From Pseudomonas sediminis (lineage in GTDB: Bacteria; Pseudomonadota; Gammaproteobacteria; Pseudomonadales; Pseudomonadaceae), in the NCBI RefSeq assembly GCF_039555755.1, contig NZ_CP154631.1, positions 2,852,001 to 2,916,000 of the forward strand: 64,000 nucleotides of DNA. Reading direction: 5' to 3'. Positions 4,977 through 45,996 of this stretch are shown here, one piece after another (the first letter of the stretch is position 1; each line of letters begins with the position of its first letter). The translations under genes were made by a program, and so were the position numbers. Under the pieces are notes generated by a model. The model had not been told where the DNA came from, did no database searches, and was given only the letters and a program-made list of their open reading frames with translations.

Positions 4977-5114
4977 AATGCGCCGGCCGCCGCTCTGGGT
5001 AGAACCTCCGCGCGAGAAATGGGCTAATTGCCTTGAAATACTTTGCAAAATTCGCCCCGTTGAGCGGAGTTCGCGGCCTGAATATATTTGCGCCCGTGAT
5101 GCCGGGCCCCTCTG

Positions 5115-5162
5115 GCGGTTAACACCGCGATGTCGGAATCACAGTCTGTTCAATCTGACTGT
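5115..5162 (+). other. terC leader with two small hairpins
   Basis: Upstream of terC a GCGGT/ACCGC hairpin (about 5116-5129) and an ACAGTC/GACTGT hairpin (5141-5162) directly precede the AGGAGGGG ribosome binding site. The second stem ends at the edge of this site and could affect translation. I do not see the GGGGAGTAGC signature of the yybP-ykoY manganese riboswitch here, although TerC-family genes often carry it. Confidence 0.4.
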
Positions 5163-6522: not shown

Positions 6523-6604
6523 TGCAAGGTCGGCGGTGCAGGCACCGCTGAGCGGTTGCTGGGCGCCGCCACTTCCGCCCCGGCGCGCTTGGGTTTATCC
6601 TGCG

Positions 6605-6712
6605 CACCTCTTTGGGGAGTAGCCTGCCGTCGCGCTAGCGTCGGCGCGTTGGTCAACATTCTCGGCAACCTGCCGTGGCCAACGCATCCGCTGGGATTGG
6701 TGAGACCAACGA
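6605..6712 (+). ncRNA. yybP-ykoY manganese riboswitch
   Basis: The leader of mntP holds the conserved pieces of this riboswitch class: GGGGAGTAGC at 6614-6623, GGTCAACATTCTCGGC near 6651-6666 and GTGAGACCAA near 6700-6709. The basal stem can pair TTGG (6612-6615) with CCAA (6706-6709). The E. coli mntP leader has the same element, and the class binds Mn2+ to switch on Mn export genes. Exact borders are approximate. The location, orientation and downstream gene all fit. Confidence 0.85.
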
Positions 6713-6776
6713 CAGTCCTGTGCCAGGTCGGGCGCGCAGTGGCTTGTCGTTGACTCAGGCCCGGCTGGAGTTTCCC

Positions 6777-35959: not shown

Positions 35960-36379
35960 GTGGACAAGTTCGATCGCCAGATCCTCACTCTGCTGCGCAG
36001 CGATGCGCGCACCTCCGTCAGCCAGATCGCCCGTGAGATCAATCTGTCACGTTCGGCGGTAAGCGAGCGGATTCGCTATCTGGAGGAGAGCGGGGTGATT
36101 CGTGGTTATCACGCGCAGGTCGCGGTGCCGGGCGAAGGTGGAGTCAGAGCTTATCTCGAGCTTTTCTACCAAAACGCCCGTTGTCAGGATTACGTCGAGC
36201 GTATGCGCGAATACCCGGAAATCCGCCATTGCAGTGGCATCAGCGGCGAGACCGACATGCTGGTACTGGTCGAGGCGCCGAGCATGGCGCGCCTGAGCGA
36301 AGTGCGCGCGGCCATCGAGGCCTTCCCGCAAATGCAGCGGGTCAAGACTCATGTCGTCGTACAGGACTGGCCGCTATGA
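35960..36379 (+). CDS. Lrp/AsnC family transcriptional regulator
   Basis: 139 residues from a GTG start giving the typical N terminus (V/M)DKFDRQILTLLRSDARTSVSQIA; an ATG 45 bases upstream lacks a ribosome site. HTH: VSQIAREINLSRSAVSERIRYLEESGVI; then an effector (RAM) domain with YVERMREYPEIRHCSGISGETDMLVLVEAP. It is divergent from the exporter gene and overlaps sbcD by four bases (ATGA). Confidence 0.88.
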   Translation: MDKFDRQILTLLRSDARTSVSQIAREINLSRSAVSERIRYLEESGVIRGYHAQVAVPGEGGVRAYLELFYQNARCQDYVERMREYPEIRHCSGISGETDMLVLVEAPSMARLSEVRAAIEAFPQMQRVKTHVVVQDWPL

Positions 36380-37596
36380 GCTTGCGCATCCTGCACACCT
36401 CCGACTGGCACCTGGGCCAGCATTTCATGGGCAAGACTCGGCAGGCCGAGCACCAGGCCTTCTGCGCCTGGCTGCTGGAGCAGGTGCGCGTGCACGACGT
36501 AGACGTGCTGTTGATCGCCGGTGATGTGTTCGACACCGGCGCACCGCCCAGTTACGCCCGCGAGCAGTACTACCGGCTGGTGGTGGAGTTGCGCGACGCC
36601 GGCTGCGCCCTAGTGGTACTCGGCGGCAACCACGACTCGCCGGCCATGCTCGGTGAAAGCCGCAGCCTGCTGGGGCAACTGGGCACCCAGGTGGTGCCGA
36701 GCGTGGGCGTCGACCTGGCTGAACAGGTACTGGTACTCAATGATCGTACTGGCCAGCCGGGCGCCATTCTCTGCGCCATTCCCTTCATCCGCTCGCGCGA
36801 CGTGCTGGCCAGCCAGGCGGGGCAGAGCGCACAGAACAAACAACAGTCGCTGCAGCAAGCTATCGCCGAGCATTACCGAGCACTGTACGAGCTGGCGGCG
36901 AGCAAGCGTAACGAGCTGGGCCTGACGCTACCGATCATCGCCACCGGTCACCTCACCACAGTTGGCGCCAGCGCCAGCGAATCGGTGCGCGAGATCTACG
37001 TCGGCAGTCTGGAGGCCTTCCCCACCAGCGCCTTCCCGCCGGCGGACTACATCGCCCTTGGCCATATCCACCGCCCGCAGAAGGTCGGCGGCCTGGAGCA
37101 CATTCGCTACAGCGGCTCGCCGATTGCCCTGTCCTTCGACGAGGCGCGCCAGCAGAAGGAAGTTCTGCTGCTGACGTTCGCAGGCGCCACCCTGCAGTCG
37201 ATCACGCCACTGCCCGTGCCGGTGTTCCAGCCCATGGCCAGCCTGCGCGGCTCGCTCAAGGAGTTGGCAGGCTCCATCACCGAGGCAGCTGCACAAGGCA
37301 CCCCCGAGCGGCCTGTATGGCTGGAAGTGCAAGTGAGCACCGACGACTACCTGAGCGACCTGCAAAGCCGCATCAACGCTCTGTGCGAAGGGCATCCCGT
37401 GGAGGTGCTGCGTATCCGCCGCGAGCGCGGCAACGCCATGGCCAGCCTGGCCAGCGAAGCACGGGAAACGTTGGACGAGCTGAGCGTGGAAGACGTCTTC
37501 GCCCGGCGCCTGCTGCAAGAGACATTGGAAGAAGAGGATGCCCAGCGCCTGCAGGGTTTGTATCGGCAGGTGCTGGAGGCGCTGCCCAAGGCCTAG
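36376..37596 (+). CDS. sbcD: Exonuclease SbcCD, D subunit (Mre11-type nuclease)
   Basis: 406 residues. Metallophosphoesterase motifs: LHTSDWHLGQ, LIAGDVFDTG, VLGGNHDSPAML, ATGHLTT and ALGHIHRPQ, so the di-metal nuclease centre is complete. SbcCD cleaves DNA hairpins and protein-blocked ends. In most Pseudomonas the sbcC gene follows directly; here it starts almost 5 kb downstream, with an integron and three other genes in between. The start overlaps the Lrp-type gene, so transcription probably comes from there. Confidence 0.95.
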   Translation: MSLRILHTSDWHLGQHFMGKTRQAEHQAFCAWLLEQVRVHDVDVLLIAGDVFDTGAPPSYAREQYYRLVVELRDAGCALVVLGGNHDSPAMLGESRSLLGQLGTQVVPSVGVDLAEQVLVLNDRTGQPGAILCAIPFIRSRDVLASQAGQSAQNKQQSLQQAIAEHYRALYELAASKRNELGLTLPIIATGHLTTVGASASESVREIYVGSLEAFPTSAFPPADYIALGHIHRPQKVGGLEHIRYSGSPIALSFDEARQQKEVLLLTFAGATLQSITPLPVPVFQPMASLRGSLKELAGSITEAAAQGTPERPVWLEVQVSTDDYLSDLQSRINALCEGHPVEVLRIRRERGNAMASLASEARETLDELSVEDVFARRLLQETLEEEDAQRLQGLYRQVLEALPKA

Positions 37597-37667
37597 CGGC
37601 ACAGACCTCGTAGCCCGAATGCAATTCGAATGGCGGTCGTTACAACCCAGCCAAGTGCTTGCCGCGC

Positions 37668-38774
37668 TCACCCCAGCGGGCTGACTACACCGGCAAAGCC
37701 CTGTCCCAGCACATGCGTATAGATCTGCGTCGTACGTATATCCGCATGCCCCAGTAGCGTCTGCACTGTGCGAATGTCACTCCCTCGACGCAGTAACTCG
37801 GTGGCGAAACTGTGGCGAAAGGTATGGCAACTGGCAGGCTTGTGCAGATTGGATTGCCGCACGGCATGTCTGACAGCTTTCTGAATGGCACTGACATGAA
37901 GGTGATGACGAACGATCTGCCCGTCCTCATCCGTGCAAAGTCCGGTCGACGGGAACAGCCACTGCCACTCGAATGAACATCCCGCCTTGGGGTATTCGCG
38001 ACGTAGCGCAAATGGCAGGCTGACGGGAGCGTGATAAAAACTGTCCCGCTGCTTCCAGGCGCGAAACATACGCTCTCTGCGCTCCAGCAGCTGTGTGATC
38101 AAGGGCGCCGGCAGAAGTGTCGTTCGGTCTTTGGCGCCTTTGCCGTCGTGAATGGTGATGATCTGCTTATCGAAATCCACATCCTTGATACGCAAGCGTG
38201 CAGCTTCCACCACTCGCAAGCCGGCGCCATACATCAGCGAAGCCAGTAGCTGATGCGGTTGGCCGAGCCTGGCAATGAGCGCCGTGGCTTCCTCATGCGT
38301 AAGTACGCAAGGAATACGCGCTGAGCGTTTTGCGCGCACCACCTCGCCCACTTGCCCGAGCGGTTGTTGCAAGACCTTGTCGTATAGGAAAACCAGCGAA
38401 TTGAGTGCCAGATTCTGGGTGGCGGCAGCCACCTGACGCTCAACTGCCAACCAAGTGAGAAAAGCATTGACCTCGGTAGGGCACTGCTAAAAACGTAGGC
38501 GAGGCAGTCAGCACAAGGCAAAAATAGGCGAAAAAGCGGAGTTTACGTGCTGTAAATGAGCATTTTGAGCCTGTTTTTAACGCAGTGATGGCAACGCAGG
38601 TAGTTTTTAGAGGTGTCCTACAGCGCCAAGCTCCATTGGATGGCGCAGCTTATGGAAACGGATGAAATAGCGAATCCAGTACCAGTAGGTTTTTTCGGCG
38701 CGGATGCTGTAATGATGCTAGCGCATCACCGCCCTGAACTGCTCCTGCAGGCGAGGTTTGCTGGAGGTTTCCAT
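37668..38774 (-). pseudogene. intI: Integron integrase IntI, disrupted
   Basis: Reading from the ATG at 38774 (AAGGAG upstream) the protein begins METSSKPRLQEQFRAVMR, then TAG at codon 19 (38718-38720), then continues HHYSIRAEKTYWYWIRYFI and reaches codon 51. A MITE-like insert of about 145 bp (38476-38621), bringing another in-frame TAG (38487-38489), interrupts it. The frame resumes at [15 protein letters not shown]. The catalytic half is intact: [19 protein letters not shown], the integron-specific insert [45 protein letters not shown] (Arg, His, Arg, His, Tyr present). Without the insert it would encode about 319 residues, the normal IntI length. It is divergent from the cassettes as in all integrons. 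A shorter frame from about 38450 lacks the N-terminal domain and should not be functional. Confidence 0.9.
38476..38621. mobile_element. MITE-like element inserted in intI
   Basis: About 140-146 bp with terminal inverted repeats: GTAGGGCACTGCTAAAAAC at 38476-38494 and, in complement, GTAGGACACCTCTAAAAAC at the right end (38603-38621). It has no open reading frame of its own. Internal sequence is richer in A/T than its surroundings. The ends look like those of IS5-type elements in Pseudomonas as I remember them, but this is unverified. Target duplication is not clear; the interrupted frame regains register if 144 nt are removed. Confidence 0.8.
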
Positions 38775-38788
38775 GGCCGACTCCTTGG

Positions 38789-38804
38789 CTGTGTTTTTGT
38801 ACAG
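38789..38804. promoter_or_regulatory. LexA box upstream of intI
   Basis: CTGTGTTTTTGTACAG fits the CTG-N10-CAG LexA operator and is very close to the class 1 integron box CTGTTTTTTTGTACAG as remembered. It lies 15 bases before the intI ATG, where LexA would repress integrase expression, as known for SOS-controlled integron integrases. Confidence 0.75.
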
Positions 38805-38974
38805 TGGTAATGGTAGAGCAAAAAGAGGAAGTCAAGCGAATACATCCAGACATCAGGAGCTGGCTGGTAATGCCATGATTTTAAAAAGAATTTCCCAGGG
38901 TAACCATGCTAATGGTGCGGAGTTAGATGGAAGGTTCTAATATCGCGTTAGTACCGCCTTCCGTCTAATCACTG
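38805..38974 (+). other. attI: attI region of the integron
   Basis: The 170-nt stretch between the LexA box and the first cassette holds no gene. It ends at the recombination point G^TTATATG (38974/38975). It contains an inverted repeat, GTTAGATGGAAGG (38922-38934) against CCTTCCGTCTAAT (38957-38969), with one mismatch and a nested CTAA/TTAG pair in the loop. Position identifies it as attI; the exact integrase binding sites are not determined. GTTAGAT at 38922 also fits the GTTRRRY core consensus. Confidence 0.65.
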
Positions 38975-39671
38975 TTATATGCCAGCAAAGGATCGCACAT
39001 GAATAAACAAATTCTAAACGTTGCCTTCGAAGATGATATCGATACTGACGCGATCCTAAGCATGAAGGAGGCTTTGGCAGCCTTTGGCGAAGAAGTATCG
39101 TTTCACGAGCTTCCGAAACGTGGGCCCCAGGCGTCAATTTTGCTTCTTACCATGAGCTCTATAGTCTTGGTTTTTGGAGTTTCCTTCGCTAAAAAAATTG
39201 GAGAGAAATCTGCAGAAGCCACCTGGCAGCTCGTCGAGAAAGGCTTGTCAAAGCTCTATAAAAAATACTTTGGCGAAACTCCAGGGCATGTGATTTATTA
39301 CGTTTCCGGCAGCGAAAAGAAACTCCCTAATACAAAGTACTCCCTTACGCTCTCTCTCCTCTGCACTGGTAGCAAAGGAGAAAACATAAAATTCATTTAC
39401 GAAACAAAATTGTCGCAAGCCCAATTCAATAAGGCAACAAGAGCTTACCTTCGTGCAATGCCTGAATTCACATCCAGCAGCACGGGTGTAATACAGAATC
39501 TAATCGAAAAAAACCCAACCCGAGTCAGCCCCTTCCTTATTGCATGGGATGCAGTTTCAGAAGAGCTTATTTTCGTAAACGTTATGCCTGCTGCAGCTGA
39601 CATATAACAACTGGTTCAAACCGTTCGCTTCGCTCACTGGGACGGGCTAAAGCCCGCCCCTTAACCAAACT
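38975..39671 (+). mobile_element. Integron gene cassette 1
   Basis: The cassette runs from TTATATG (38975) to the base before TTATAAG (39672). Its first bases are the exact complement of the start of its attC (CATATAAC at 39601-39608), the pairing expected of the R' and R'' arms when a cassette is circular. It holds one gene that nearly fills it, and the stop codon TAA lies inside the R'' arm, as in many cassettes. Base composition is clearly more AT-rich than the chromosome around. Confidence 0.85.
38999..39607 (+). CDS. Cassette 1 protein of unknown function, one membrane segment
   Basis: 202 residues, preceded by AAAGGA eight bases upstream. No known family recognised. An acidic N-terminal region of about 45 residues (VAFEDDIDTDAILSMKEALAAFGEE) is followed by one strong hydrophobic segment (SILLLTMSSIVLVFGVSFA, residues about 46-64), a positively charged amphipathic stretch (KKIGEKSAEATWQLVEKGLSKLYKKYF), and a globular part of about 110 residues ending in strands (PFLIAWDAVSEELIFVNVMP). 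The layout suggests a membrane-tethered protein with two cytoplasmic or split domains. Codon use and AT content indicate acquisition from elsewhere. Confidence 0.8.
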   Translation: MNKQILNVAFEDDIDTDAILSMKEALAAFGEEVSFHELPKRGPQASILLLTMSSIVLVFGVSFAKKIGEKSAEATWQLVEKGLSKLYKKYFGETPGHVIYYVSGSEKKLPNTKYSLTLSLLCTGSKGENIKFIYETKLSQAQFNKATRAYLRAMPEFTSSSTGVIQNLIEKNPTRVSPFLIAWDAVSEELIFVNVMPAAADI

Positions 39672-39678
39672 TTATAAG
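39601..39678 (+). repeat. attC: attC site of cassette 1
   Basis: Arm order: R'' CATATAAC, L'' GTTCAAACC, central GTTCGCTTCGCTCACT and a GGGACGGGCT/AGCCCGCCCC stem-loop, L' CCTTAACC, R' TTTATAAG. Of 54 central bases (39614-39667), 51 are the same in the attC of cassette 2, as expected of a resident chromosomal integron lineage. The cut point base is T (39671) rather than the usual G. Confidence 0.85.
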
Positions 39679-40269
39679 TATGAAGTAAGTGAATAATAAG
39701 TTCATGATGAAGTGCCTTTTAGTTATAGTCACCCTAATACTATCCGGATGCGGCTCTAGTCCAATTAAATACAAAACAACAGAGATGGAAATAAATTCCG
39801 CAATTAATTTGGCAGAAGAAATAACTTGGTCACAACATGAAAATTGGAGGCCGGATGGATTTGTAGTAAACGAAAAATACATTTCATGGGGGTTCGGCGT
39901 TATATCAAGAAGTAGCTCTTGGGCCACAAATGTAGGAAATACAGGTTTAGCTGTGGGCGGTGGTACTTCAATTCACCGAAATGCAGGAAGTAGAATGTAC
40001 TATCGCTACATTGATAGAGTGCAACTTTACTCATGGAAAAGAAAATTCAGGCAGTGGTATGCAGTGGCTATCATTGACAAAAGTGGTGCCCAAAAATTTA
40101 TTCTACGTACAAGAAGCCTTGAGGATGCAGAGCTATTTACAAGCGCCATGACGTCAATCGTCGATTTCTACAAAGTTAAAAATTAGGCGTCAACTTATAA
40201 CCATTACAGCATTCAAACCGTTCGCTTCGCTCACTGGGACGGGCTAAAGCCCAGCCCTTAACCAATACG
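39672..40269 (+). mobile_element. Integron gene cassette 2
   Basis: Begins TTATAAG, complementary to its own attC start CTTATAAC (40194-40201). It carries one AT-rich lipoprotein gene. The right border is less certain because the R' arm at about 40269-40277 (GCTATCGAG) has drifted from the expected GTTATAAG; after it the DNA returns to host-like composition. Confidence 0.8.
39689..40186 (+). CDS. Cassette 2 predicted lipoprotein of unknown function
   Basis: 165 residues from a GTG; ATG codons at 39704 and 39707 are alternative starts and would keep the signal. The N terminus MMKCLLVIVTLILSGCGSS is a lipoprotein signal with lipobox LSGC. The mature protein has alternating strands (GFVVNEKYISWGFGVISRSSSW, MYYRYIDRVQLYSWKRKFRQWYAVAIID) and a conserved-looking FILRTRSLEDAELFTSAM helix near the end, similar in feel to a PH-like barrel. 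No family is recognised. Expression probably depends on readthrough from cassette 1 or upstream. Confidence 0.78.
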   Translation: MNNKFMMKCLLVIVTLILSGCGSSPIKYKTTEMEINSAINLAEEITWSQHENWRPDGFVVNEKYISWGFGVISRSSSWATNVGNTGLAVGGGTSIHRNAGSRMYYRYIDRVQLYSWKRKFRQWYAVAIIDKSGAQKFILRTRSLEDAELFTSAMTSIVDFYKVKN

Positions 40270-40277
40270 CTATCGAG
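40194..40277 (+). repeat. attC: attC site of cassette 2
   Basis: R'' CTTATAAC (40194-40201), L'' ATTCAAACC, the same central GTTCGCTTCGCTCACTGGGA block and GGGCTAAAGCCC loop as the first attC, L' CCTTAACC, degenerate R' near GCTATCGAG. This marks the end of the array; seven bases later an unrelated host-like gene begins. Confidence 0.82.
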
Positions 40278-40284
40278 CCTCTAA

Positions 40285-40890
40285 ATGATCCCTCTGCCAT
40301 CATCTTGGGCCAGTGCCTGGTCAGACCTTGGCCTACAGCCTCCGTCAGGTCTGTTCGAGCTGCTCGTTCGTGCCTATGAGGAGCCGCAGCGGCACTATCA
40401 CTCGCTGCAGCATCTGCGCGAATGCCTGATGCATTTCGAGCAGGCGCGGCATCTGGCGCAGCAGCCGGGGGAGGTGGCCATCGCGCTCTGGTTCCATGAC
40501 GCCATCTACGATGTGCGCGGCAAGGATAACGAGCGCCTGAGCGCAGATTGGGCCATCCGGGTGCTTGCGAGCTGTCACGCCAGCCAGGTGACGTTGGCGC
40601 GGGTCAAGCAACTGATCATGGTCACCCGGCATGATGCGACGCCGAGCGAGCCGGATGAGCAGTTGTTGGTGGATATCGACCTGGCCATTCTCGGCGCCAC
40701 GCCGGAGCGTTTCGCCGAATACGACGCTCAGGTGCGCGCCGAGTACGCCTGGGTGCCGGGCTTCGCCTACCGCATGAAGCGGCGCAGCGTTCTTCAGTCA
40801 TTTCTGGCGCGCCCAACCATCTACAGTACGGATCATTTCAGGGCGCGCCATGAGGCGCAGGCGCGGAACAATCTGGCCGGCGTGGTTTGA
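40285..40890 (+). CDS. HD-domain phosphohydrolase-like protein
   Basis: 201 residues. Predicted metal-dependent HD superfamily: histidines in QRHYHSLQHLRECL, the HD pair in ALWFHDAIYD, and the later aspartate in LLVDIDLAILG. The family is widespread and its substrate unknown. High-GC and host-like, so not obviously a cassette, although its ATG lies within a few bases of the last attC, and no attC follows it. Its own promoter may have been displaced by the integron. Confidence 0.85.
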   Translation: MIPLPSSWASAWSDLGLQPPSGLFELLVRAYEEPQRHYHSLQHLRECLMHFEQARHLAQQPGEVAIALWFHDAIYDVRGKDNERLSADWAIRVLASCHASQVTLARVKQLIMVTRHDATPSEPDEQLLVDIDLAILGATPERFAEYDAQVRAEYAWVPGFAYRMKRRSVLQSFLARPTIYSTDHFRARHEAQARNNLAGVV

Positions 40891-40977: not shown

Positions 40978-42075
40978 GTGCCGTTGTTCAATGCCTTGCT
41001 GCGTGCGCTTGACCCTTTGCATGGAGTGCCAGAGGCGACTCGGCAGGCGTTCGCCTGCTGGTACCTGCAGGCGAAGATTCCGCAGATCCGCTACGTGGCG
41101 TTCCTTACCACCGGGCTGTATCTGATCTATGCCGCCATCGAGCAGAACGTCGAGACCGATCAGTCCGTCGCGCGGCTGATCTGTCATGCGTTGTTGGTGC
41201 CAGCGGCGTTGCTGAGCATCGGCTTGCTGAGTTTCCAACCCAAGCGACAGCCCTTGATGTTGGGGTTACTGACAGCCGCTCCAATTTTCTCGGTACTGGC
41301 CAACCTCTACTTCAACTTCGGTTCGCCGCGCTTTGCTTTCTACGCACCGGAGATTTACCTCAACCTGATGTGGACCTTCGCCATCTCCGGTCTCACGCTG
41401 AAGCGCGCGATGCTCACGTCGTTGGTTTCGCTGGCGGCGATCCTGCTGGTCACGCTGGAGCACTCGCTGACGCCCGGCATGCAGCGCCTGCACCTGATCT
41501 GGATTCTGGCGTCGTTCTCCTTCGGTCTGCTCAGTGCTTTTCTGCTGGAGAAGGCGCACAAACGTATGTTCCTGCATCAGGACAGTCTGGCCCTGAGCGC
41601 CAGCATCGACAGCCTGACCGGCCTGTGGAATCGCGCGCGCACTCTGCATTTTCTGATCGAGGAGGTGGCACGGGCCAATCGCTACGGCACGCCGTTCTCG
41701 GTGGTACTAATCGACATCGACCACTTCAAGAGCGTCAACGACACCCATGGCCATGCCGTGGGCGACAGCGTGCTGCGGCAGTTTGCCGGGTTGTTGCGCG
41801 ACGGCGTGCGAGTCATGGACAAGGTCGGCCGGCTCGGCGGCGAGGAGTTTCTGATCATCCTGCCGGAGAACGATGCGGCGCACGCCGAGCGCGCCATGCA
41901 GGCTCTGCAGAAGCGCATCAACGGTTTCGCCTTCGACCGTGTGCAACGCAAGAGCGCCAGTTTCGGCATTGCCGAGTATCGCCCAGGCGAGAGCCTGGAC
42001 AGCCTGATGGAGCGTGCGGACCAGGCGATGTACCTCGCCAAGGCCAATGGCCGCGACCGTATCGAGATACTGTGA
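40978..42075 (+). CDS. Membrane diguanylate cyclase (GGDEF)
   Basis: 365 residues from a GTG after GGGGAG. About six membrane segments fill residues 37-185, resembling a 6TM sensor (GLYLIYAAIEQN, LLVPAALLSIGLLSF, LTSLVSLAAILLVTL). The GGDEF domain follows, with DIDHFKSVNDTHGH and the active motif GGEEF at 287-291, and an RxxD inhibitory site (RVMD) five residues before it. It should synthesise c-di-GMP at the inner membrane; its signal is unknown. Confidence 0.9.
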   Translation: MPLFNALLRALDPLHGVPEATRQAFACWYLQAKIPQIRYVAFLTTGLYLIYAAIEQNVETDQSVARLICHALLVPAALLSIGLLSFQPKRQPLMLGLLTAAPIFSVLANLYFNFGSPRFAFYAPEIYLNLMWTFAISGLTLKRAMLTSLVSLAAILLVTLEHSLTPGMQRLHLIWILASFSFGLLSAFLLEKAHKRMFLHQDSLALSASIDSLTGLWNRARTLHFLIEEVARANRYGTPFSVVLIDIDHFKSVNDTHGHAVGDSVLRQFAGLLRDGVRVMDKVGRLGGEEFLIILPENDAAHAERAMQALQKRINGFAFDRVQRKSASFGIAEYRPGESLDSLMERADQAMYLAKANGRDRIEIL

Positions 42076-42142: not shown

Positions 42143-42508
42143 ATGCAAAGAGCGGCACATTTTCTTCTCGCGGCTGCGGCCATTCCCCTGTTGTTGGCCG
42201 GCTGCGCGACATCTTCCAGCGAGCAGGATGCCAAGGTGACCGAGCAGTGGTTGGGGCGCTGGACCGGGCCAGAGGGTACTTACCTGGATATCAGCGGCAC
42301 GCCGGCTGACTACCGCCTGACCATCGCCAACCTCGACGGCCCGCGACGGTTTGTCGGCCGTGCGCAGGGCGCGAAGATCGTCTTCGTGCGCGATGGCGTG
42401 GTGGAGAGCGTCAGCGCCACCGACGGCGAAGCCACCGGCATGAAATGGCTGCTGGACAAGCAGAACTGCCTGACTGTGCGCAGCGGTGAGGGTTATTGCC
42501 GCGACTGA
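42143..42508 (+). CDS. Small predicted lipoprotein
   Basis: 121 residues; GGAGAG upstream. Lipoprotein signal MQRAAHFLLAAAAIPLLLAGC with the lipobox LAGC. The mature part contains WLGRWTGPEGTYLDISGTPADYRLTIANLDG, which looks like a small beta-barrel or lipocalin-like fold, with two cysteines at the C-terminal end (NCLTV, YCRD) that may form a disulfide. Function unknown. It lies 54 bp before sbcC. Confidence 0.8.
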   Translation: MQRAAHFLLAAAAIPLLLAGCATSSSEQDAKVTEQWLGRWTGPEGTYLDISGTPADYRLTIANLDGPRRFVGRAQGAKIVFVRDGVVESVSATDGEATGMKWLLDKQNCLTVRSGEGYCRD

Positions 42509-42561: not shown

Positions 42562-45500
42562 ATGAAAATCCTCAGCCTGCGCCTCAAGAACCTCAACTCC
42601 CTCAAGGGTGAATGGAAGATCGACTTCGCTGCCGAGCCTTTCGCCGGTAGCGGTCTGTTCGCCATCACCGGGCCAACCGGGGCGGGCAAGACCACTTTGC
42701 TCGACGCCATCTGCCTGGCGCTGTACCACCGCACACCGCGTATGAGCACGCTGTCGGCCAGCGGTAATGAGCTGATGACGCGGCACACCGCCGATTGCCT
42801 GGCCGAAGTCGAGTTCGAGGTTAAAGGGCAGGGCTACCGCGCCTTCTGGAGCCAGCGCCGCGCGCGGGACAAGGTCGACGGTGCGCTGCAGGCGCCCAAG
42901 GTGGAGCTGGCGCGTATCGCCGATGGCGAAATTCTCACCGACAAGATTCGCGAGAAGGAAAGCCTGACCGCTGAACTGACCGGCCTGGATTTCGAGCGTT
43001 TCACCAAGTCCATGTTGCTCGCTCAGGGCGGCTTCGCGGCGTTTCTCGAGGCCAATGCGAACCAGCGAGCCGAGCTGCTGGAGGAGCTGACCGGCACCGA
43101 GGTCTATGGGCAGATATCCCAGCAGGTTTACGAACGCACCAAGGCCGCCGAACAGGCACTGGGCCTGCTGAAAAGCCGCGCCCAGGGCATGGAGCTGCTG
43201 GATGAGGCGCAGCGTGCCGAATTGCAGGCCGAAGCCGAGCGCCTGGCGCAGGAACAGGCCCCGTTGCAGGCTGAGCAACAAACGCTGCTGGCTGGGCAGC
43301 GCTGGCGTGAGGCGCTACAGCGAGCCGAGCAACAAGCCGGCGAGGCAGCGCAAGGGCTGGAGCAGGCCCAGCAACGTCAGGCTGCTGCGGCCGATGACTT
43401 ACAGCGTCTGGCCGCCAGCGAGCCGGCAGCGCGTTTACAACCGCTGCACCAGGCCTGGCAGCAAGCGCAGCACGACAGTCAGCAGGCCGAGCACGGTCTG
43501 TTCGCACTGCGTGAGCAGATGCAAATGTGTGCCGAGCGTGAACGTCAGGCGCTGTGGCAGGCCAGCCATCATGCGGGGCACTGGCGTGAGCAGCGGCACG
43601 TCGCGTTGACGCAAGCGCAGCACCAGCACGCCGAGGTGCAAGCCTGGCTGAACGAGCGCAGTTCGCATGCGCGCCTGGGCGAGTTGCTCAGTGGTTGGGA
43701 CGAGCGCTTCACGCAACGGGCCAAGGCTGAGCAGGCGCTGCAGACAGCGCAAACGCGCCAGAGCGAATCCGCGGTACAACTGACGACGTTGCAGCGCCAG
43801 CGTGACGAGCAGGGTGTGCGTCTGACCACGCTACAACTGCAGGTGCAGCAGGCGCGTGACGCCGAGGGGCAGCAGCAGGGCGCCTTGCAGGCTCTGCTGG
43901 GGGATGCCGGTGAGGCAGGCTTGCGCCAGGACTGGCAGCGCCTGCAAGCGCGCAGTCGGGTGTTCGACCGCCTGCAGCAATTGGCGCAGAGCCGCGAGGC
44001 CTTGGCCGTACAACTGGCCGAGCTGCCACCGCGCCTGGCTGAGCTGCAGCGCCGACAGGCGCACAAGAACACCGAGATCAACGCCCTGCGCGAGCGTTAC
44101 AAGGCACTCAAGCAGCAGGTCGCCGACAAGGAAAAATTGCTGGAGCAGGAAAAACGCATTCAGGATCTGGAGGCCTATCGCGCCCGCCTGCAACCGGGCG
44201 ACGCTTGCCCGCTGTGCGGCTCGCACGAGCATCCGGCGATCAGTCAGTACCAGGCGCTGAACGTCTCGGCCACTGAGCAGGCGCTGGTGCAGTGCCGCAG
44301 TGAGTTGGCTGAGCTGGAGAGCCAGGGCGCCAACCTGCGTGATGAGCTGACCCGTCTCGCCGCGCAGATCGAGCAGGTGCAGCAACAACAGGCTCAGGCC
44401 GAGGCGCAATTGCTGCCGTTGGATCAGCAGTGGCAGCAGCAACTGAGCGAACATGACATCCGCCTGCAGGACGTCGCTGAGCTGACAGGTGTGCAGCAGC
44501 AGCACGAGCAGGAATTGGCTGCGCTCCAGGCGCGCCTGGAAGCGGCGCAAGCACAGCAAACCGAGCTGCAGCGCCTGCGCGAGTTGCGCGAAAGCGCTGA
44601 GCGCGAGCAGGCCGAGGCAAAGCGGCAGCAGGCAGTACTCAGTCGTGATCTGGACAACACCCAGGCGCGCCTGGCCGAGCAACTGGCGCATCTGAACGCG
44701 CTGCAGACTGAATTAGCGCAACAGGCCCAAGAACTGCTTGCCAGCCTGCAGGGCTTCGCCAGCGAGCTGCCGGCCGACGGCTCAGGCTGGTTGATGCAGC
44801 AGAAAGCCGCCTGGCACGCCTGGCAACAGACGCAGGCGCGTGAGCAGCAGTTGCTCGAACTCACGCGCGAGGCGCAACGACAACTGGACGAAGCTCAGAC
44901 GCAGGCCGAGCACTGGCAGCAGCGTTGGCAGGACGCAGGTGCGCCGGGTCTGGCGACCCCGGAACCGCCAGCCGATCCGCAGCAGGCCCTGCGTGAATCC
45001 GCCGAGCGGTTGGCCGCGACCCTGCGTGAACGTGATGGCCTCGCTGGCAGCCAGCAAGCCCAGGAAGCCTTGCTGGCGCGTGAGCAGCAACGTCTGCAAA
45101 GCTGTCAGCAGGCTTGGCAACAGGCGCTGCTGAGCAGCCCCTTCGCCGATCAGGCGGCGTTCGAAGCGGCGCTGTTGAGTGAGGATGAACGCCAGCGTTT
45201 GGTGCAACTCAAGGTGGATCTCGAGCGTGCGCACACCCAGGCCGCGACCCTGCTGGCGGCGGCTCAGGCCGAGGTGCAGCGCCTCTCGGCAGAAGCGCAA
45301 ACCGCCTTGAGCCCGGAGCAGTTGGCCGAGCAGCTCCAGACATTGCAGAAACGCTTGCGCGCCCTGAGCGAGCGTCAAGGTGAGCTGCGCGCGCAGTTGC
45401 AGGCCGACGAGGCGCGGCGCAGCAGCCAGCAGGCACTGTTCGCCGAAATCAGTGCGCAGGAGAGTGAGCAGGGCCTGTGGCAACAGCTCAACGGCCTGAT

Positions 45501-45996
45501 CGGCTCGGCCGACGGTGCCAAGTTCCGCAAGTTTGCCCAGGGCCTGACCCTCGATCACCTGATCCACCTGGCCAACCGCCAACTGACGCGCTTGCATGGA
45601 CGCTATCAATTGGCGCGCAAGGGCAGCGGCGAACTCGAGCTGGAGGTGCGCGACACCTGGCAGGCCGATGTGGCGCGCGATTGCCGCACGCTGTCCGGCG
45701 GCGAGAGTTTCCTGGTCAGCCTGGCGCTGGCGTTGGCGCTGTCCGATCTGGTCAGCCACAAGACCAGTATCGACTCGTTGTTCCTCGATGAAGGTTTCGG
45801 CACGCTCGATGGGGAAACCCTGGAGGTGGCGCTCGATGCCTTGGACAACCTCAACGCCAGCGGCAAGACCATCGGCGTGATCAGTCACGTCGAGGCGATG
45901 AAGGAGCGTATTCCCGTGCAGTTGCGGGTGCACAAGGGCGTCGGTCTCGGTTACAGCCGGCTCGATGCGCGTTTTGCGGTGAAGGAAGGAGCGTAG
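42562..45996 (+). CDS. sbcC: Exonuclease SbcCD, C subunit (Rad50-type ATPase)
   Basis: 1144 residues. N-terminal Walker A GPTGAGKT at 37-44 with the Q-loop region; two long Gln/Glu/Ala-rich coiled coils; the zinc hook CPLCGSHEH with cysteines at 549 and 552; then the C-terminal ATPase half with signature CRTLSGGESFLVSLALALALSD, Walker B SLFLDEGFGTLD and the switch ISHVEAMKERI. It forms the ATP-driven clamp that works with SbcD on hairpin and palindromic DNA. The operon partner sbcD is almost 5 kb upstream. Confidence 0.95.
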   Translation: MKILSLRLKNLNSLKGEWKIDFAAEPFAGSGLFAITGPTGAGKTTLLDAICLALYHRTPRMSTLSASGNELMTRHTADCLAEVEFEVKGQGYRAFWSQRRARDKVDGALQAPKVELARIADGEILTDKIREKESLTAELTGLDFERFTKSMLLAQGGFAAFLEANANQRAELLEELTGTEVYGQISQQVYERTKAAEQALGLLKSRAQGMELLDEAQRAELQAEAERLAQEQAPLQAEQQTLLAGQRWREALQRAEQQAGEAAQGLEQAQQRQAAAADDLQRLAASEPAARLQPLHQAWQQAQHDSQQAEHGLFALREQMQMCAERERQALWQASHHAGHWREQRHVALTQAQHQHAEVQAWLNERSSHARLGELLSGWDERFTQRAKAEQALQTAQTRQSESAVQLTTLQRQRDEQGVRLTTLQLQVQQARDAEGQQQGALQALLGDAGEAGLRQDWQRLQARSRVFDRLQQLAQSREALAVQLAELPPRLAELQRRQAHKNTEINALRERYKALKQQVADKEKLLEQEKRIQDLEAYRARLQPGDACPLCGSHEHPAISQYQALNVSATEQALVQCRSELAELESQGANLRDELTRLAAQIEQVQQQQAQAEAQLLPLDQQWQQQLSEHDIRLQDVAELTGVQQQHEQELAALQARLEAAQAQQTELQRLRELRESAEREQAEAKRQQAVLSRDLDNTQARLAEQLAHLNALQTELAQQAQELLASLQGFASELPADGSGWLMQQKAAWHAWQQTQAREQQLLELTREAQRQLDEAQTQAEHWQQRWQDAGAPGLATPEPPADPQQALRESAERLAATLRERDGLAGSQQAQEALLAREQQRLQSCQQAWQQALLSSPFADQAAFEAALLSEDERQRLVQLKVDLERAHTQAATLLAAAQAEVQRLSAEAQTALSPEQLAEQLQTLQKRLRALSERQGELRAQLQADEARRSSQQALFAEISAQESEQGLWQQLNGLIGSADGAKFRKFAQGLTLDHLIHLANRQLTRLHGRYQLARKGSGELELEVRDTWQADVARDCRTLSGGESFLVSLALALALSDLVSHKTSIDSLFLDEGFGTLDGETLEVALDALDNLNASGKTIGVISHVEAMKERIPVQLRVHKGVGLGYSRLDARFAVKEGA

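Follow-up and report, generated by a model that had tools for sequence, protein, structure and literature searches.

A small integron lies at positions 37668-40276 of the Pseudomonas sediminis DNA analyzed here (contig NZ_CP154631.1, positions 2,852,001 to 2,916,000; 64,000 nucleotides, referred to below as the window), directly 3′ of sbcD in a genome that consists of one contig. Integrons capture circular gene cassettes by attI × attC recombination driven by the integrase IntI, and the cassettes are expressed from the integron platform. The layout is the canonical divergent one, with the integrase gene, intI, on the minus strand and attI and two cassettes on the plus strand. Judged from its sequence, the locus is very probably a degenerate sedentary chromosomal integron of an already known kind. 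Its least ordinary feature is that one dead-integrase allele occurs with differing arrays.

The intI pseudogene spans 37668-38774 on the minus strand, with its start codon at 38772-38774. The open reading frame (ORF) at 37668-38450 (minus strand) encodes an integron integrase, scoring 336.6 bits against TIGR02249 (cutoff, 265) over profile positions 53 to 312 of 315, while the 12 other models listed for it, including XerC and XerD, all fall under their cutoffs. Identity as a phage integrase is ruled out by these profile scores, as TIGR02249 alone passes its cutoff, in agreement with an earlier reading of the sequence alone (the original prediction), which had placed the enzyme with IntI rather than with phage tyrosine recombinases. 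The closest solved structure is Vibrio cholerae IntI4 (2a3v; E, 2.7e-67). The open C-terminal part comprises 260 amino acids (37671-38450) with a TTG start, and Pfam matches it to the catalytic domain of phage integrases but, of the N-terminal SAM-like domain (PF13495), solely to the last part, from position 53 of 85. About 50 N-terminal residues are missing from this part, since the TIGR02249 match starts at position 53. An IntI 88% identical to that of the window over 260 amino acids is found in Aeromonas tecta CECT 7082, a member of another bacterial order (L033; the genomes and loci compared are designated by G and L numbers).

The window intI is a pseudogene, broken by a TAG codon plus a 142-bp repeat. 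Read from the start codon, its frame gives 18 amino acids and then an in-frame TAG at codon 19 (38718-38720, minus strand), which is missing from G115 and from the open copies and is restricted to the window's genome among those compared. The frame in G115 ends after 55 amino acids. It is 320 codons from the aligned start in G371, G246, G221, G314, G182, and G208, and also in G008, G126, G332, G224, and H. yangmingensis; other broken copies are the second copy in G221 (109) and that of A. tecta (41). The original prediction had recognized the IntI gene but missed its broken state. An integrase still active at a low level, made from an internal start or as a truncated protein and keeping the array active, might draw on the 260-amino-acid open frame and its conserved C-terminal half, but the loss of some 50 N-terminal residues, including most of the SAM-like domain, the separation of the frame from promoter and start by the repeat, and the TAG upstream make this scarcely credible.

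The repeat lies inside intI at 38478-38619 and resembles a miniature inverted-repeat transposable element (MITE) in being short, in its imperfect terminal inverted repeats (AGGGCACTGCTAAAAAC and GTTTTTAGAGGTGTCCT), and in its many copies, the 4.6-Mb genome yielding 40 listed matches, the window copy counted. Its ends were judged on 20 own-genome copies (L113-L132, window copy included), which share one core and have two end types (AGGGCAC.. and CAGGCCGTTG..). Some copies suggest a 2-bp target-site duplication (AC or TT), and others do not. The same repeat occupies the same intI position in G115. The base beside the insertion is common to the window and G115 and absent from the seven other aligned rows; one insertion event in both genomes is therefore likely. 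The left side of the repeat within intI is not the same in the two.

A LexA box (CTGTGTTTTTGTACAG, CTGT-N8-ACAG; 38789-38804), separated from the start of intI by 14 bp, is the sole exact match in the window. The motif is weak by itself, its chance expectation in the window being about 0.9; among the 16 loci with an intI N terminus (window included), however, 15 have a perfect box at a distance of 14 to 16 bp from the start of intI, G208 being the one without it. A 59-nucleotide attI block (38919-38977, plus strand) contains the crossover region GTTA at 38974-38977, and the block, which ends in CACTGTTA, is conserved beside intI in relatives. It differs from the clade consensus at five positions in the window, three in G122, one in G246, and none in G115, G371, G314, G221, or the second G221 copy; the attI of G008 is truncated, with two differences in the remaining part. 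These counts suggest a relaxation of constraint but are too small in number, and the absence of differences from G115, whose intI is dead, speaks against it. An inverted repeat that could form an attI hairpin is strong only in the window's clade, and no claim is made for it. A sigma-70 promoter scan gave one site, compared with 2.8 expected in shuffled sequences, and no Pc is claimed.

The array was delimited with a covariance model (R1) built on 38 attC sites, all taken from genomes other than the window's; the source was 51 distinct attC-like sites with a full-length match from other loci. Run over the 64-kb window (E up to 10, default filters), R1 gave two matches and nothing more: attC1 (39601-39678, plus strand; 94.7 bits; E, 4.2e-28) and the terminal attC2 (40194-40276, plus strand; 49.1 bits; E, 4.7e-13), which has a degenerate R′. 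With this check, set beforehand, and the TIGR02249 match, the predicted integron with integrase gene, LexA box, attI, and two attC cassettes in divergent arrangement was confirmed. A repeat search found the attC repeats as two 54-nucleotide copies that are 96% identical. Cassette 1 (38975-39671, plus strand; limits read from attI and attC1) has its R′/R″ arms as an inverted repeat: 14-nucleotide arms at its start and at the end of its attC are 93% complementary, as expected of a true cassette. Cassette 2 (39672-40269, plus strand) has limits read from attC1 and attC2. The canonical GTT core of R′ is absent from both sites; in attC1, it is the first base of the triplet that sets the site apart from relatives, and in attC2 the spacer is longer and R′ reads GCT. 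The terminal attC of five relatives departs from the canonical core as well. The border with orf3, the 201-amino-acid ORF 3′ of the array that serves as a right-border marker (40285-40890, plus strand), carries the noncanonical CGCTATC in six of six genomes compared (the window's, G115, G371, G246, G122, and G413).

The 202-amino-acid product of cassette 1 (38999-39607, plus strand) has no Pfam or NCBIfam match, 13 relatives among 5.8 billion proteins (its own entry not counted), and a poor structure model (pLDDT, 57) unfit for structure search; it was found in 1 of 338 genomes, namely, the window's own. Cassette 2 encodes 160 amino acids (39704-40186, plus strand) with a lipoprotein-like signal judged by eye, no match in Pfam or NCBIfam, and seven relatives. 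Its structure model (pLDDT, 71) has no match in the PDB at an E value of ≤0.001, the low-ranking rows including some PH/PTB-like domains. Of the 338 genomes, 16 have a match to it; apart from that of the window's own genome, the 15 matches are at 26 to 33% identity, and none is from G115.

G115 was called the same species as the window's genome by the tool used, and the SbcD tree groups the two (99/85). Forks with good support are few in the IntI and SbcD trees, which were used solely for this sisterhood in SbcD. Neither cassette protein of the window has a match in the sbcD-orf3 stretch of G115 or elsewhere in that genome. In 120-nucleotide blocks, the two loci are 98 to 100% identical across sbcD, except for one block at 89%, and mostly 98 to 100% identical in the C-terminal part of intI, followed by blocks at 93, 97, 93, and 89% and an attI block at 81%. 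To the right of the array, identity is 90% in the first block and then 96 to 100% up to 42864, followed by 85, 75, and 92% at 42865-43224 and 93 to 97% thereafter. The stretch of sbcC at 42865-43104, with 75 to 85% identity amid 92 to 98%, is likely another exchange tract. Between the window and G314, sbcD blocks are 81 to 98% identical and intI C-terminal blocks are 98 to 100% identical. From this mosaic identity along the locus, it follows that segments have recombined between genomes.

The repeat has entered intI in both the window and G115, and the TAG is a further lesion present, among the genomes compared, in the window's alone; the array should therefore no longer be rearranged by its own integrase. 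Because G115 shares the insertion but has a different set of cassettes, the simplest reading is that the insertion predates one array or both, with an array exchanged after it in at least one of the two genomes. The most likely route is homologous recombination through the flanks and the near-identical attC repeats, and replacement of the array by homologous recombination after the insertion is the most likely reading of the comparison. A broader view, which we hold tentatively and at slightly less than even confidence, is that the dead integron may be a locus of continuing exchange, with flanking homology and attC repeats serving as substrates of IntI-independent homologous recombination and attC2 as one deletion joint. 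A pair of genomes with one lesion but two arrays allows a test of whether an array can change in the absence of its own integrase.

Several points weigh against array replacement by homologous recombination on a dead allele. The 260-amino-acid C-terminal ORF retains the catalytic region as well as a possible start codon, TTG, so that a truncated protein could exist. The dead intI segment could have moved onto different arrays instead of the arrays onto the segment. The dead allele is found in only two genomes. On the right side of the array, G115 is not a closer match to the window than G371 is, so that the histories of the flanks are not simple. Finally, G115 also has a class-1-type integrase, which could have acted in trans.

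A trans-acting integrase, for instance this second IntI of G115, could have altered the arrays in place of homologous recombination, an unlikely alternative but one with evidence of its own. The enzyme (L217, G115:C31) has 337 amino acids, is 48% identical to the window IntI, and scores 798 bits (cutoff, 435) against NF011946, a model of class-1 integron integrases. Integrases can recombine noncognate attC sites, and an attC about 0.6 kb from this gene is 97% identical to attC1 of the window. No second IntI, however, is present in the window's genome, where the two additional matches are partial (51 to 52%), and the window's sites deviate, attI by 5 differences in 59 nucleotides and attC1 at its core. 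At the border on the side of orf3, the window is 96% identical to G371 and 90% identical to G115, a sign of exchanged flanks. Integrases that score almost like the class-1-type one of G115 are also present in G004, G299, G388, G405, and G408.

Homologous recombination within the array may have left its own trace in attC2. The 3′ part of this site and the border that follows are nearly identical to the terminal attC of G371, and the window lacks the terminal cassette of G371, G246, and G122, in which there is a small ORF of hydrophobic appearance. It is possible that attC2 is the joint of a deletion between attC repeats, which would explain the lost terminal cassette. The same site contains the nine-base CCATTACAG at 40201-40209, also found beside attC stems in G115, G221, G182, G425, and the window's own genome; a transposase gene of the IS110 family (PF02371) adjoins it in both loci checked, one in G115 and one in the window's genome. 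The nine bases in attC2 are possibly an insertion-sequence scar.

Other attC traces lie elsewhere in the window's genome. Far from the integron, a cluster without an integrase (L223) comprises two attC sites (G000:C1:3296745-3296817 and 3297258-3297320) together with a transposase gene of the IS110 family and a pair of small ORFs. At L224 (G000:C1:1284486-1284537), a lone cassette-like ORF of 172 amino acids has an attC stem that runs into foreign sequence, and the same foreign sequence is joined at the same point of an attC stem in G314 (L207). An interpretation of the sequence adjacent to L224 as a transposase gene was dropped, as its 113-amino-acid ORF has no Pfam match.

To place the locus among its relatives, SbcD was searched for in 398 genomes of the genus, giving 54 matches at an E value of ≤1e-100, and the 3′ side of sbcD was viewed in 32 of these (the best 30 plus G182 and G208). 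An open, full-length intI follows sbcD in five loci (G371, G246, G221, G314, and G182), an intI interrupted by the repeat in two (the window and G115), an intI fragment only in three (G122, G012, and G286), and an array remnant without intI in two (G413 and G347). Another 11 have sbcC directly after sbcD (G332, G268, G126, G224, G304, G119, G060, G425, G266, G068, and G302), all with an SbcD 76 to 78% identical to that of the window, and sbcD and sbcC overlap in the six of these integron-free junctions that were viewed. The remaining nine have other or unresolved content (G063, G008, G157, G292, G299, G368, G177, G229, and G208). In G208 (L214 and L262), a related integron with ten attC matches lies on the opposite side of sbcD, by an Lrp-type regulator gene. 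No integron was found between sbcD and orf3 in G157 (L177), where the genes present resemble, as judged by eye, a restriction-modification pair and an acetyltransferase gene. Right borders vary more than left ones: the array of G314 continues into unrelated sequence, and in G221 intI and orf3 are on separate contigs.

The statement of the original prediction that sbcD and sbcC are adjacent in most Pseudomonas holds for 11 of the 32 loci viewed. The site is not peculiar to this genome; relatives have an open, broken, remnant, or no integron there. A recent, independent insertion into sbcD-sbcC of the window's genome could appeal to the 11 adjacent loci and to the related integrons away from sbcD in G126, G332, G224, and G008, from which it follows that the element can change place. 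It is nonetheless improbable, given open or partial copies beside sbcD in G115, G371, G246, G221, G314, G122, G012, G182, and G286 and a place and left border common to the window's clade. The comparison instead shows the spot just 3′ of sbcD to be the long-standing home of the integron in the clade. In G182 and G286, SbcD is only 76 to 77% identical to that of the window, and the sbcD-intI spacer is shorter than in the window's clade; because of this shorter spacer, a separate insertion at the same spot is possible in these two. IntI itself was found at an E value of ≤1e-60 in 44 of the 398 genomes. The locus is a natural series within one group of genomes, from open intI through repeat-cut and mostly deleted intI to a remnant and no trace.

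The left neighbor, sbcD (36376-37596, plus strand), is identified by NF008206 (exonuclease subunit SbcD; 637 bits; cutoff, 450), and sbcC (42562-45996, plus strand) is identified by NF007600 (939 bits; cutoff, 750). The integron had been placed between these two genes; it does adjoin sbcD, but three genes separate it from sbcC: orf3, a GGDEF protein gene (40978-42075, plus strand; PF00990, 149 bits), and a small ORF encoding a lipoprotein-like product (42143-42508, plus strand), which is retained at the locus in relatives. The integron at this locus keeps sbcD and sbcC apart. An Rfam scan at gathering scores found no match at the integron; elsewhere in the window, it matched terC RNA and the Mn2+ riboswitch (yybP-ykoY) at 5094-5145 and 6599-6771.

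The window integron can be compared with several known systems. Vibrio super-integrons include the nearest solved relative of the window IntI, that of V. cholerae (2a3v), but they hold very many cassettes, whereas the window has two and has lost its integrase. IS1111-attC insertion sequences are alike in that IS110-family transposase genes lie by attC stems in G115 and in the window's own genome; in attC2 itself there is only a nine-base trace, which may be read as a scar. With the sedentary chromosomal integrons of Pseudomonas, the shared features are IntI, a LexA box, attI, and attC arrays; the window integrase differs in being dead by repeat insertion and a stop. Such integrons include those of P. 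stutzeri Q and BAM, P. alcaligenes, and P. mendocina, names given in PMC3108266, whose available text makes no mention of the sbcD locus. Among the publications listed on Pseudomonas integrons and related elements, no title or start of an abstract describing the sbcD locus was found; subscription papers lay mostly outside this scope, and novelty is not claimed. A dead intI is compatible with membership in the integrons, because such elements are counted in the available text of both surveys, as 43% of 1,135 integrase homologs apparently inactivated (PMC3108266) and nearly one third of integrases nonfunctional (PMC2426708). The Xanthomonas integron at ilvD, as far as the available text of PMC12444791 describes it, is alike in its fixed home locus, the frequent inactivation of intI, signs of recombination between intI and the neighboring gene, and attC clusters elsewhere in the genome. 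According to the same text, which summarizes earlier work, Xanthomonas strains that share an intI lesion mostly carry identical arrays (PMC12444791), whereas the two genomes compared here have the same lesion and no cassette in common.

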